From: Gillisia sp. Hel1_33_143
GTDB taxonomy: Bacteria; Bacteroidota; Bacteroidia; Flavobacteriales; Flavobacteriaceae
Direction of reading: 5' to 3'
DNA: 64,000 nucleotides
Assembly: GCF_900104765.1 (NCBI RefSeq)
Contig: NZ_LT629737.1
Span: forward strand, 3,348,001-3,412,000
The notes under the pieces were generated by a model. The model did not search any database. It worked only from the letters and a program-made list of their open reading frames with translations, and was not told the DNA's origin. Numbering within the stretch: position 1 is the stretch's first letter; each line of letters begins with the position of its first letter. Shown in pieces: positions 18 to 3,240 of the stretch. A program made the position numbers and the translations under genes.

Positions 18-174
18 TAGGGGAAAAATACCCTTGATTTAGCTGTAGGTTTCAAATACATTTACTTATTCATTTTAGTTAGCTAAAATGTTTTGGGGCA
101 AAAAAGTGCTGTGAAGGTGTAGATATTAATAGGTAGGGCTGTTAATATTGGAATTACTGGAACAGCACTTTTTT
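18..174. repeat. Non-coding module, copy 1
   Basis: Three blocks lie in fixed order. AGGGGAAAAATACCCT is at 19-34. An inverted repeat has arms CATTTTAG (71-78) and CTAAAATG (83-90). A hairpin has a perfect 13-bp stem (100-112 with 162-174) and AGGTAGGGCT in its loop (131-140). The same three blocks recur at 2197-2348 with the first two exactly 52 bp apart in both places. Read on the minus strand, this is a terminator followed by a palindrome and a GGGTATTTTTCCCC box that would lie upstream of a gene beyond the left edge. Read on the plus strand, it could be a small RNA gene with its own promoter. I cannot decide between these. Confidence 0.75.
100..174. terminator. Long-loop hairpin, probable bidirectional terminator
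   Basis: The arms at 100-112 and 162-174 are perfectly complementary over 13 bp, with a run of A on the left and T on the right, so either strand ends in a U-tract. It sits about 40 bp past the stop codon of the minus-strand membrane-protein gene at 215-925 and would terminate that unit. The 49-nt loop is unusually long for a plain terminator. Confidence 0.6.
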
Positions 175-214
175 ATTGATACCCATTAGAACTCTTTCTA
201 ATGGGACAAAGATT

Positions 215-925
215 TCACTTTCCAGATCGCGCACATATTAAAAAGCCAAGGGAGAAAGTGCAATACATAAAAATATTGCAAAACCTCAAAACAGAACTGT
301 AGAACAAGAGAAACTCTTTATTTTCCCAACTAAAGTATGTGTTATAAATGTAAATAGGTGTTACACATAAGTTCCAAACTACGGTGCCAATGGCAATATA
401 AAAAAGCAAATCTTTAGTAAAATATAGAATATCATCGTTGTTAAGCAGCTTCAAAAAATAAGTGCCCACACATGCCAAAAGCAATAAATTACCCAACAAT
501 ATATTAGGAATAAGATATTCTACAAATAAATTTCCTGAAAACAGAATTACAGCTAAAGCAATTATAGCATACAAAAACATTGCAAGCCTAAACCACTTTC
601 TGAGCAAAAAAGTTTTGAAAGAACTAACAAATACCGAACAATACACTAGATACGTAATTGGTTTTAAAAGATTATACAACCATTCATTTCTTACAAGTAC
701 AGAATTTCTTAACCAGGGAAAGGTTTTATAATTATCAAAATAATTCCAAATAGTATAAAACCCAGCAGTGTCTAAGAAAAAAACAAACCATAAAAACCAG
801 ACAAAAATTCTATTTTTTTGTGGAGCAGTTCTGATTTTATAAAGATAATAACTACCACAAATAGCAGCCATTAGCTCTAATATCGCCCCAGAATATAATT
901 TATTTTCTAATATATATTCTAGCAC
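215..925 (-). CDS. Seven-helix membrane protein of unknown function (paralogue B)
   Basis: This is a 236-residue integral inner-membrane protein with about seven hydrophobic segments (roughly residues 12-31, 39-60, 85-106, 112-130, 135-158, 170-194, 205-230) and no signal peptide or soluble domain. It is a clear paralogue of the next gene (978-1721). Both share WNYFDNY followed by FPWL (about residues 60-72), RNEW (79-82), a KDLLFYIAIG stretch and WNLCVTPIYIY in helix 6, and CNIFMY in helix 7. Polar and aromatic residues conserved within and between helices suggest a sensor or channel rather than a simple anchor, but that is inference. The start is GTG at 925-923; a nearby ATG at 930 is out of frame and soon stopped. 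I do not recognise the family. Confidence 0.85.
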   Translation of the reverse strand: MLEYILENKLYSGAILELMAAICGSYYLYKIRTAPQKNRIFVWFLWFVFFLDTAGFYTIWNYFDNYKTFPWLRNSVLVRNEWLYNLLKPITYLVYCSVFVSSFKTFLLRKWFRLAMFLYAIIALAVILFSGNLFVEYLIPNILLGNLLLLACVGTYFLKLLNNDDILYFTKDLLFYIAIGTVVWNLCVTPIYIYNTYFSWENKEFLLFYSSVLRFCNIFMYCTFSLGFLICARSGK

Positions 926-977
926 TTCATAAGACTTAATAAGTTATTCTATGTTTAATTTTGCACCTAGACTTAGG

Positions 978-1721
978 TTACTCAGGTTTCTTCCATATAC
1001 CAATCTTTTTAAAAGGGGTAACACACACCACAAATCCAACTGCAAAAGCAGAATACATAAATATGTTGCAGTATCTCAAGATTGCTGCGTATAATAATAT
1101 AAACTCCTCATTCTCCGTATTAAAATAATCATCATAAATATAAATTGGAGTAACACAAAGATTCCAAATAACTACTCCAATAGCTATATAAAACAATAGA
1201 TCTTTAGAAAAATAAAGAATTTTATCGCTTTTTAACAGCTGTTGGAAATACACCGCTATACTACTCAAAAGCAGCAGTGTTCCCAGAAAAATATTTATGA
1301 TAATATATTCCTTAAAAACATCTCCGATAAATAAGATTTCTATTACTCCAAATATCAAATAAAATAATGTTGCAGCCTTTAATACACTTTTCATCTTTGA
1401 AGCAATTAAAGAATCAATAAACATTAAACTTTGAACTAAATAAGAAATAACAATTAAACAGTTAAAATACCATTCATTGCGAGCAAAGGGAGAATCTTGT
1501 AACCATGGAAAGGTTTGGTAATTATCAAAATAATTCCAAACTGCATATAATCCAACAATATCTGCAATTAGCACAAACCATAAATACCAAGCAAAAAACT
1601 TGAATCTGAATGCTGTATTTTTGCTTTTAGTAATATAATAACTGCCCGCAAGAGCAGCTAATAATTCAAAAATATGGGTTATATATATATTATATTTTAA
1701 ATAGTAATCTAAAGTATCCAT
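978..1721 (-). CDS. Seven-helix membrane protein of unknown function (paralogue A)
   Basis: This 247-residue protein is a tandem paralogue of the gene at 215-925, with about seven hydrophobic segments and the same signature motifs in the same order (GSYY in helix 1, WNYFDNY, FPWL, RNEW, KDLLFYIAIG, WNLCVTPIYIY, CNIFMY). It starts with ATG only 10 bp after the stop of the 123-residue gene and ends 52 bp before its paralogue, so the three genes are probably one transcript. Keeping two diverged copies side by side suggests a heteromeric pair or two specificities; this is inference. The C-terminal tail is short and basic (KKIGIWKKPE), as expected for a cytoplasmic end. No known domain was recognised. 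Confidence 0.85.
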   Translation of the reverse strand: MDTLDYYLKYNIYITHIFELLAALAGSYYITKSKNTAFRFKFFAWYLWFVLIADIVGLYAVWNYFDNYQTFPWLQDSPFARNEWYFNCLIVISYLVQSLMFIDSLIASKMKSVLKAATLFYLIFGVIEILFIGDVFKEYIIINIFLGTLLLLSSIAVYFQQLLKSDKILYFSKDLLFYIAIGVVIWNLCVTPIYIYDDYFNTENEEFILLYAAILRYCNIFMYSAFAVGFVVCVTPFKKIGIWKKPE

Positions 1722-1731
1722 TTAATGAATA

Positions 1732-2103
1732 TTAGTACATAGTTGGAGGCCACTTTCCAGTACCGTTATTTAATGGATCTATTTCTTCGTTATCTACATC
1801 TTCAAATTCTATAGAATCATCAATTTTCACTCTCTTTGTTGGTGAGAAGAATACCGTAGCTAAACTTGGTTCTGTATCTGTTGCCTCGTAAGCACCAAAC
1901 CATACATTTATACCTGGTGTATCTACACCTTGCATTTCAGATTTCTTTTTAACATCATCTAAATAAGCTTGCAATTCTTCTACAGTAAAATAAAATTGAC
2001 ATGTATCTTCATGTGTAGTACCCCCAGTGGTAACCAGAGATCTAGTTTCCCACCATTTTTTTTGCAACTTTTTAGCCTTTGCCACAGTAATTTTTCTACT
2101 CAT
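1732..2103 (-). CDS. Small soluble protein of unknown function, first gene of the cassette
   Basis: This 123-residue protein has no signal peptide and no membrane segment. The N-terminus is basic and probably helical (KAKKLQKKWWETR, about residues 8-20). The middle has a FTVEELQAYLDDVKKK helix and a VWFGAY strand followed by FFSPTKR. The C-terminal tail is acidic and ends in DPLNNGTGKWPPTMY. I believe similar small proteins with a WFGAY / SPT core and a PLN-G-PP-Y tail occur in other Bacteroidota, but I cannot name a family. It leads a three-gene cassette with two membrane-protein paralogues, and a duplicated palindrome and box lie about 95-165 bp upstream of its ATG. Confidence 0.8.
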   Translation of the reverse strand: MSRKITVAKAKKLQKKWWETRSLVTTGGTTHEDTCQFYFTVEELQAYLDDVKKKSEMQGVDTPGINVWFGAYEATDTEPSLATVFFSPTKRVKIDDSIEFEDVDNEEIDPLNNGTGKWPPTMY

Positions 2104-2196
2104 ATCATTAATGATTCTAAAAATTAATAATCTTAAAATTTAAATATTTTGTTAAAATTAGAAAATTATTTAAGTATATAGAATATAAAATGATAA

Positions 2197-2348
2197 AAGG
2201 GGAAAAACACCCTTTCCAAACTCCAAAGTTGCTATTACTTTTGAAATATCATTTTAGTCTTCTAGAATGATCAGGATTAAAAAGTGCCGTAAGGTCTTAA
2301 TATTATTAGGTAGGGCTTTTAATATTAATATTGAAAAGGCACTTTTTT
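2197..2348. repeat. Non-coding module, copy 2
   Basis: This is the second copy of the module at 18-174. AGGGGAAAAACACCCT is at 2198-2213, the palindrome arms CATTTTAG and CTAGAATG are at 2250-2257 and 2262-2269, and the hairpin arms are at 2279-2288 and 2338-2347 with AGGTAGGGCT in the loop at 2308-2317. The spacing between box and palindrome is 52 bp in both copies, and palindrome to hairpin agrees within 1 bp. The hairpin arms differ between copies but each pairs with itself (CTGT/ACAG in copy 1, CC/GG here), which is covariation. On the minus strand the palindrome and box precede the 123-residue gene and are the best candidates for its control region. Confidence 0.75.
2279..2347. terminator. 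Long-loop hairpin, probable terminator of the pxp operon
   Basis: AAAAAGTGCC pairs with GGCACTTTTT across a 49-nt loop, giving a U-tract on both strands. It lies about 30 bp past the stop of pxpC on the minus strand, where it would end the operon, and before the control region of the next minus-strand unit. Confidence 0.6.
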
Positions 2349-2376: not shown

Positions 2377-3240
2377 CTAATTTCCAAAATCTTTAAAACT
2401 GAACATTACTTGATCTCCCATAATCTTCTGAGACATTGTATTTATTCCATTTTCTGTTAACTGTAATATTCTTGGATAACCGCCCGTTGTTTGGCAATCT
2501 CTCATCAAAACGATTAAATTTCCGGAAGGAGTTAATTGCACCGTACCCGGAACTACCGGAGAAGTAATAATTGGCAATAATTCATTTTTAAGTTTTTCTG
2601 TAAGCTGGATAGCCATTCTACTGTTATTCTTATCGATCGTAAAAAATCTATTTTTAATTTCTTCCTTAGTTGAAGTGGATAGTTTATAAAATTCCGGTCC
2701 TTCCTCTAATTCAATTTTTGTTTCAAATACATGTTTACTATTTACTTTAACCGAAGCATTTGTTGCTGCATCCTTTTGTTCGAAATCTTGAAAATAAAGG
2801 ATCATTCCTTTTTCTAATTTGATATTTTCAGAAATTCCCTCATACCAACTTTTGCTTTCAAGAATAGTTTCCGTCTTAAATCCTCCGGAAATAGATAGAT
2901 AAGTTCTACAGCCATTTACTCTTTTACCAAAAGAAAGTTCATCTCCTTCTTCCAGAAAATATACCTGATCATTTTGTATTTCTTCGTCGTTGATTTTAGG
3001 GGAAAGATTGGCGCCGGTAATTCCAATTTTCGCGGCAGAATGAAACTTTAATTTTGGCCCCATTTGCGTAATTTCCAACACCGCATAATCTTCAGAATTC
3101 TGTAAAATAAGGTTTGCCATTTTAGCAGAAAACATATCCATAGCGCCACTAATTGGAACTCCATATTTTCTAAAATTATGCCTTCCTAGATCTTGAATAG
3201 TTGAAAATAAACCGGGACTTAAAACTTCAATTTTAGCCAT
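2377..3240 (-). CDS. pxpC: 5-oxoprolinase subunit C (PxpC / KipA / YbgK family)
   Basis: This is the larger catalytic subunit of the ATP-dependent prokaryotic 5-oxoprolinase, which with PxpA and PxpB opens 5-oxoproline (pyroglutamate) to glutamate in the cytoplasm. The protein is 287 residues, a little shorter than the E. coli homologue. The family start is visible (VLSPGLFSTIQDLGR, residues 6-20), then YGVPISGAMD, and near the C-terminus QTTGGYPRI. It was formerly annotated as biotin-dependent carboxylase or allophanate hydrolase subunit 2. It overlaps pxpB by 8 bp, so the two are translationally coupled. It is the last gene of a five-gene minus-strand operon. Identification is firm; activity on 5-oxoproline follows from the pxpABC set. 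Confidence 0.93.
   Translation of the reverse strand: MAKIEVLSPGLFSTIQDLGRHNFRKYGVPISGAMDMFSAKMANLILQNSEDYAVLEITQMGPKLKFHSAAKIGITGANLSPKINDEEIQNDQVYFLEEGDELSFGKRVNGCRTYLSISGGFKTETILESKSWYEGISENIKLEKGMILYFQDFEQKDAATNASVKVNSKHVFETKIELEEGPEFYKLSTSTKEEIKNRFFTIDKNNSRMAIQLTEKLKNELLPIITSPVVPGTVQLTPSGNLIVLMRDCQTTGGYPRILQLTENGINTMSQKIMGDQVMFSFKDFGN

Follow-up and report, generated by a model that had tools for sequence, protein, structure and literature searches.

What is the non-coding module that occurs twice, at positions 18-174 and 2197-2348, near the left end of a 64,000-nucleotide (nt) stretch of the genome of Gillisia sp. Hel1_33_143? This stretch, hereafter the window, covers positions 3348001-3412000 of a closed 3.48-Mb genome. 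An initial annotation, made from the letters alone, had recognized the duplication, and the boxes, palindromes and apical sequence AGGTAGGGCT that it described are indeed present in both copies. It left two explanations side by side: either a terminator joined to the control region of a minus-strand unit, or a regulated small RNA (sRNA) gene on the plus strand. Our analysis favors the second, both copies being predicted to be genes for a small non-coding plus-strand RNA of about 105 nt. We consider it likely that an adjacent pair of genes, for a histidine kinase and a response regulator, activates two divergent promoters through the box, and that the RNA acts by base-pairing in trans.

The module, the spacing of its promoter, its conservation, the covariation of its hairpin and its confinement to one locus can all be read directly from the DNA. 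In each copy the box is followed, at 21 nt, by a -7 element of flavobacterial type (TAnnTTTG) and then by the predicted RNA, the box consensus being an 18-bp inverted repeat, AAGGGG-N6-CCCCTT. PMC9723704 gives TAnnTTTG at -12 to -5 as the sigma-A consensus of Flavobacterium psychrophilum; copy B matches it fully and copy A in the form TACATTTA. Because the consensus occupies -12 to -5, the predicted starts fall near 69 and 2248, two bases ahead of the palindromes. Since it follows the predicted start, the palindrome would be the transcribed 5' hairpin of the RNA (SL1), so that the predicted transcript is not the ~75-nt one first proposed at 100-174 but a longer one with the palindrome included. 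The distance of 52 bp between the start of AGGGG and the palindrome, reported earlier as equal in the two copies, is confirmed, and is now read as the spacing from operator to transcript start. Likewise, the sequence outside the conserved blocks has diverged as claimed, except for the -7 element between box and palindrome, which had been overlooked. The long hairpin with its U-tract (SL2) is predicted to be the RNA's terminator, with ends at 174 and 2348. Folding energies are -35.4 kcal/mol for the RNA at 69-174 (z -6.2) and -30.4 kcal/mol for that at 2248-2348 (z -5.6), and none of 200 dinucleotide shuffles is as stable as either.

Copies were collected with a covariance model built from only the long hairpin and trained on 26 copies from the window's genus. 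With a relaxed -7 pattern, box and -7 element stand 21 nt apart in 77 of the 78 model-found copies (the script prints 20 where the box pattern absorbed one extra T). This count is biased, as the training copies were chosen with the box and many others through the promoter pattern; the fair set consists of the 19 copies outside both, and 18 of these show the same 21-nt arrangement. The box also faces the other way, towards the gene of P123, a conserved 123-residue protein: a TAnnTTT(A/G) element lies 35-39 nt from the box in 26 of 28 P123 flanks, while the same element occurs in 2/37 gene-free flanks, 2/7 flanks of other genes and 1/5 kinase flanks. Box centres are thus placed at about -42 for the sRNA and about -57 for P123. 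Positions near -42 and -57 fit an activator, as class II and class I sites respectively.

The hairpin is preserved through compensatory change. The 78-copy alignment was obtained with an E cut of 6e-5, set against opposite-strand matches, which also lost two sense copies (L071:7204-7271 and L070:6276-6351); it leaves out L123, on the same contig as L114, and L126, L128, L135, L139, L152, L157 and L159, whose contigs, judging by their length, were already represented. In this alignment, which is fitted to the covariance model and hence leans towards the model structure, pairing holds in 89.1% of cells against 73.5% in shuffles, 17 of 24 pairs are changed on both sides against 13.7 (1 of 500 shuffles reaches 17), and neither the 319 cells changed on both sides (108.9 in shuffles) nor the covariation score of 0.483 (0.198 in shuffles) is reached by any of 500 shuffles. 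When the 26 first copies are aligned with MAFFT, without fitting to the model, 13 of 24 pairs are changed on both sides (2/500 shuffles) and pairing is 86.4% versus 78.9% shuffled. The complementarity of the differing hairpin arms, first noticed between the two window copies, is thus borne out both by the folds and by covariation across the 78 copies. In these, the two loop-closing pairs, which take the forms AG/CU, GA/UC, UG/UA and others, are 99.4% paired, and the hexaloop reads GUAGGG in 69, GUGGGG in 8 and AUAGGG in 1. Of the 78 leaders, 71 have a 5' hairpin whose stem reaches 6 or more, compared with 55% of single-base shuffles; its letters are quite different between tandem copies.

Further copies exist in relatives. 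A DNA search followed by inspection of the fetched regions places the module in all 16 Gillisia genomes, at a single locus in each, and Salegentibacter and Christiangramia also carry the sRNA. The model matches the same 16 genomes with 40 sense copies, 1-4 a genome; more than one copy with a shared core is found in all except two, which are single-copy. In Gillisia the module is accompanied by the gene of a CT_A_B protein in 16/16 genomes and by the kinase and regulator genes in 15/16, the contig of the remaining genome (G312) ending first. In a search of 299 genomes of the family, in which only 16 candidates were scored per genome so that absence elsewhere counts for little, the model matched 7, of which 6 were judged real (two Gillisia, G031, G257, G100 and G266); the match in G065 (E 0.017) was judged false, box and neighbours both missing. 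A pattern scan that left the loop out (box, spacing, -7 element and ATTTTAG) over one genome per species, 84,980 species in all, returned 49 matches in 41 stretches, 42 of them in Gillisia, Salegentibacter, Christiangramia/Gramella or one Flavobacteriaceae metagenome-assembled genome of the window's genus. GTAGGG nevertheless stands 65-71 bases into the stretch in 41 of these 42, versus 0 of the 7 stray matches in other taxa; in the exception, L147, the scan read the box from its other side, the RNA being placed by the model on the opposite strand. The model, trained as it was on the window's genus, gave 0 matches at 20 P123-regulator loci of other genera. A search with the loop alone (GGTAGGGCTNTTAATATT, 1 mismatch) hit 18/299 family genomes, about the control counts, and its matches were set aside as mostly chance. 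Separately, a full box lies ~100 bp upstream of P123 at L119:5575-5593 (genome G307) with no model match beside it, perhaps marking a decayed sRNA copy.

The candidate regulator is encoded next door. Beyond the left edge of the window, the minus strand carries the genes of a HisKA_3 histidine kinase of 262 residues with one N-terminal hydrophobic stretch, whose start codon is ~127 bp left of base 1, and of a NarL-type response regulator of 212 residues with a GerE/LuxR helix-turn-helix (HTH) domain. Regulator homologues occur in 83/299 family genomes (E to 1e-50) and P123 homologues in 140/299 (E to 1e-6), and an inverted repeat is found upstream of P123 in most of the 20 loci of other genera (L246-L265). 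In a count over these 20 loci made without correction for phylogeny, one locus yielding no helix, loci whose regulator has Q as the residue following YR in its final HTH helix show an AGG-type box in 9 of 11 cases and a GGGG-type box in 2 of 11, and those with E, N or D a GGGG-type box in 6 of 8 and an AGG-type box in 2 of 8. The sRNA-group loci with a readable helix and P123 (n=29) are all E-type; within 300 bp, a GGGG box is present in 23 of them, only an AGG match in 2, and neither in 4. This association supports the regulator as binder of the box and suggests that the RNA is younger than the regulator, the box and P123; it is from this trend that we infer a role for the regulator at the common box kept at a fixed place in 77/78 sRNA promoters. 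That the half-site type (GGGG or AGG) tracks the residue after YR is also of interest in itself, as a possible specificity switch.

The box does not appear to serve a wider regulon. Outside the locus, exact boxes (AAGGGGN{5,7}CCCYTT) number 25 in the 16 Gillisia genomes, 20 of them inside open reading frames (ORFs) of at least 80 codons. All 25 were checked as regulon members, without a single -7 element at 21 or 35-39 nt, so that the box with promoter spacing is confined to its own locus.

The proposed circuit would run as follows. The kinase, probably with P123 and the neighbouring proteins of seven predicted long helices (7-TM) as sensing partners, would phosphorylate the NarL/LuxR-type response regulator, a dimer of which would bind the 18-bp box and switch on two divergent promoters: that of the sRNA, where the box centred near -42 would place it next to the polymerase, and that of the P123/7-TM unit, where the box lies near -57. 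The RNA would fold into the 5' hairpin and the long terminator hairpin, showing GUAGGG in a six-base loop, and this loop and/or the single-stranded UUUUGGGG linker would pair with C-rich mRNA stretches in trans. Transcription, binding by the regulator, activation rather than repression, and base-pairing are the steps that we infer here. Pairing through GUAGGG, and perhaps also through the linker, is the most likely mode of action because these are the conserved unpaired parts of the RNA.

Several observations weigh against this proposal. Across the 16 genomes, the loop has 69 perfect 10-nt complements, of which the sRNA genes account for 29, versus 112 for the control, and in the window's genome the two sRNA genes are the only ones; GCCCCAAAA has 566 matches versus 738 for the control, so that neither the 10-nt nor the 9-nt complements tested are enriched; and CCCTAC occurs near neighbouring gene starts at chance level. 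As regards the promoter, the spacing is broken in one of the 78 copies (L120:5941) and in one left-out copy (L071:7204, 22 nt), and one off-locus box has a -7 element 19 nt away, inside a 500-residue ORF, the other near miss, at 34, also lying in an ORF. Finally, the related genera behind the uncorrected helix-box count differ little in descent. A pyrimidine-degenerate form of the complement does exceed shuffles, in CT_A_B genes (29/34 vs 14.5) and TM genes (62/69 vs 44.4), an excess that we put down to codon content.

These null results bear on the main rival reading, in which the RNA, instead of acting as an antisense regulator, binds protein as a ligand or sponge, with the GUAGGG loop as the site of contact. 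Such a role would agree with a hexaloop held by covarying pairs and with loop complements that are not enriched. We take it seriously but think it unlikely: nothing points to a partner protein, and complement counts cannot address seeds of 6-7 nt, so that pairing through short seeds lies outside their reach.

A second rival concerns the box, which might be bound by another factor, or through which the regulator might repress rather than activate. At the sRNA promoter the box and the -33 region overlap, a placement also used by repressors, and the regulator is a putative binder of the box. However, box and regulator stay together, even in G100, which gives no kinase match; the letters of the box track the regulator's helix; and box centres near -42 and -57 fit activation. 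We therefore judge this rival distinctly unlikely, and retain activation by the neighbouring regulator as the preferred reading.

Could the block instead contain no RNA gene at all, and be the terminator of the right-hand minus-strand gene followed by the control region of the left-hand minus-strand unit? Part of this explanation, the first of the two initially offered, stands: a U-tract is present on either strand of the long hairpin, minus-strand matches also score with the model, and the hairpin may terminate on both strands, while the box does keep a fixed distance from the divergent P123 promoter. The further gene set that it placed left of the window, in contrast, does not exist: P123 is single-copy in the window's genome, and the kinase/regulator pair is found there instead. 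Gene order in relatives also speaks against it. At L069 and L072, three modules follow in a row at 210-235 bp with no space for a gene between them, hence with nothing to terminate or control, and L117 and L118 resemble this tandem arrangement. In three Salegentibacter genomes (L114/L123, L133 and L145) the module is flipped with respect to the genes around it: it is read along the kinase direction there, and in the contrary direction elsewhere. In G100 (L112), CT_A_B, sRNA and regulator are present with no match to kinase, TM or P123. None of these arrangements is explained by a terminator-promoter region of the neighbours; moreover, the plus-strand -7 element keeps a constant 21 nt, and a near-invariant loop with covarying closing pairs is not needed by a terminator. 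This explanation is very unlikely in our view, and it is the promoter spacing, together with the tandem and inverted modules, that upholds the plus-strand sRNA gene. The weakest candidate, a small peptide (V/M)FWGKKV... coded by the conserved linker (e.g. window 89-113), is scarcely credible and was rejected, for although an in-frame ATG or GTG precedes TTTTGG/TTTGGG in 46/78 copies and (V/M)FWGKKV recurs, it is missing in 32/78 copies, window copy B included, and its length ranges between 4 codons, as in Gillisia lutea (L063), and 49, so that neither presence nor length is conserved.

The features of both copies and of the genes around them are collected in the table below. Copy A sits between the kinase gene and TM236, and the minus strand then carries TM236, TM247 and P123, followed by copy B and the pxp genes, so that copy B lies between P123 and the CT_A_B gene.

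Table. Predicted elements of the two modules and neighbouring genes, in window coordinates
Feature	Position	Strand	Remarks
Copy A box (putative operator)	18..35	.	TAGGGG-AAAAAT-ACCCTT; centre ~-42.5 from predicted sRNA start; consensus drawn over 25 copies
Copy A -7 element TACATTTA	57..64	+	21 nt past box; one letter off TAnnTTTG
Copy A predicted sRNA, ~106 nt	69..174	+	start inferred from -7 element, end from U-tract
Copy A 5' hairpin SL1	71..90	+	palindrome of the initial annotation
Copy A long hairpin SL2 with U-tract (predicted terminator)	100..174	+	
Copy A apical AG[GUAGGG]CU	131..140	+	DNA AGGTAGGGCT
TM236	215..925	-	paralogue of TM247 (50% identity)
TM247	978..1721	-	seven long helices predicted (7-TM)
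P123	1732..2103	-	conserved 123-residue protein without Pfam family
-7-like element TAATTTTA of divergent P123 unit	2153..2160	-	36 nt left of copy B box; predicted start ~2148
Copy B box	2197..2214	.	AAGGGG-AAAAAC-ACCCTT; common to sRNA promoter (right) and P123 promoter (left)
Copy B -7 element TACTTTTG	2236..2243	+	21 nt past box; full TAnnTTTG match
Copy B predicted sRNA, ~101 nt	2248..2348	+	start from -7 element, end from U-tract
Copy B 5' hairpin SL1	2250..2269	+	
Copy B apical AG[GUAGGG]CU	2308..2317	+	DNA AGGTAGGGCT
CT_A_B protein gene	2377..3240	-	pxp (5-oxoprolinase-type) operon; fixed right-hand neighbour

Pfam has no family for P123 or the TM protein, with weak matches to single members only; both families accompany the kinase/regulator pair. 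Their AlphaFold2 models are fair to good (predicted local distance difference test, pLDDT, 84.4 and 88.5), that of the TM protein consisting of seven long helices. Fold searches with the two models returned nothing at E up to 0.001; the best PDB matches of the TM model are G-protein-coupled receptors and rhodopsins, at E 0.2 or worse and thus not significant. In some other genera the P123-like protein starts, by eye, with a lipoprotein-like signal. A GNAT-nitrilase fusion adjoining the regulator (L006:8812-10335) shows 75-93% identity and is much better kept than regulator and kinase at the same loci. At L068 (CT_A_B, regulator, TM) and L073 (P123, TM), the matches to the genes are fragmented, as frameshifts or draft sequence would make them.

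How does this RNA compare with known systems? Rfam 15 gives 0 matches at the gathering score in the 64,000 bases, and on 1-2500 at E up to 5 only three, all under the cut-off, among them GAIT over copy A with 21.5 bits vs 37. Neither search matched Flavo-1, a Bacteroidota RNA motif (RF01705) that had been put forward for checking. Searches of open-licence PMC papers for these genera, for Rfp18 and for Bacteroidota or Flavobacterium sRNAs with regulators, found no description of the sRNA. As far as can be seen, the RNA appears to work like the multicopy sRNAs under two-component systems, with no named sequence family assigned.

Small paralogous sRNA families under a response regulator include the csRNAs of streptococci (CiaRH) and the Qrr sRNAs of vibrios; likened by description, these differ from the Gillisia RNA in regulators, promoters and RNA sequences. 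Another case is LhrC of Listeria, although to our knowledge its regulatory system LisRK is not encoded beside lhrC. According to PMC4132741, LhrC1-5 is a multicopy sRNA controlled by LisRK, and the likeness would lie in the control of multiple sRNA copies by a single two-component system. It differs in its CU-rich sites, as opposed to the G-rich ones of the Gillisia RNA, in belonging to another phylum and in its sequence, unrelated as far as known. Within Bacteroidota, FopS/GibS of Bacteroides are, according to PMC11697453, likewise multicopy paralogous sRNAs with sigma-A promoters, but, compared by description, they form 12-15 scattered copies of 65-70 nt with a 5' seed and are not known to be under a two-component system, whereas the Gillisia RNA has 1-4 copies at one locus beside its putative regulator. 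Rfp18 of F. psychrophilum, as presented in PMC9723704, is also a structured Flavobacteriaceae sRNA for which stem-loop pairing is proposed; compared by description, its pairing is through the third stem-loop whereas the Gillisia RNA has two, and it is a possible relative.

With about even confidence, we propose that the kinase and regulator form a dedicated system, having one operator type, promoter-spaced only at its own locus, and two divergent outputs: the 7-TM/P123 unit would be old and widespread in Flavobacteriaceae, and the sRNA family would have been added opposite the operator in Gillisia, Salegentibacter and Christiangramia, then multiplied in tandem. If true, the Bacteroidota would here have a multicopy sRNA family under two-component control and, with it, a readable instance of sRNA gene birth on an existing promoter, in a bacterial family, the Flavobacteriaceae, whose regulatory RNAs are little studied. 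Two uncharacterised protein families, P123 and 7-TM, would become tied to a regulator. Strong covariation, a candidate regulator next door, a compact operator and the existence of one-copy species would make the circuit testable from sensor to RNA, and genera that have the regulator, the box and the P123 unit, and in which the RNA was not detected, would offer a route to study the origin of an sRNA gene.

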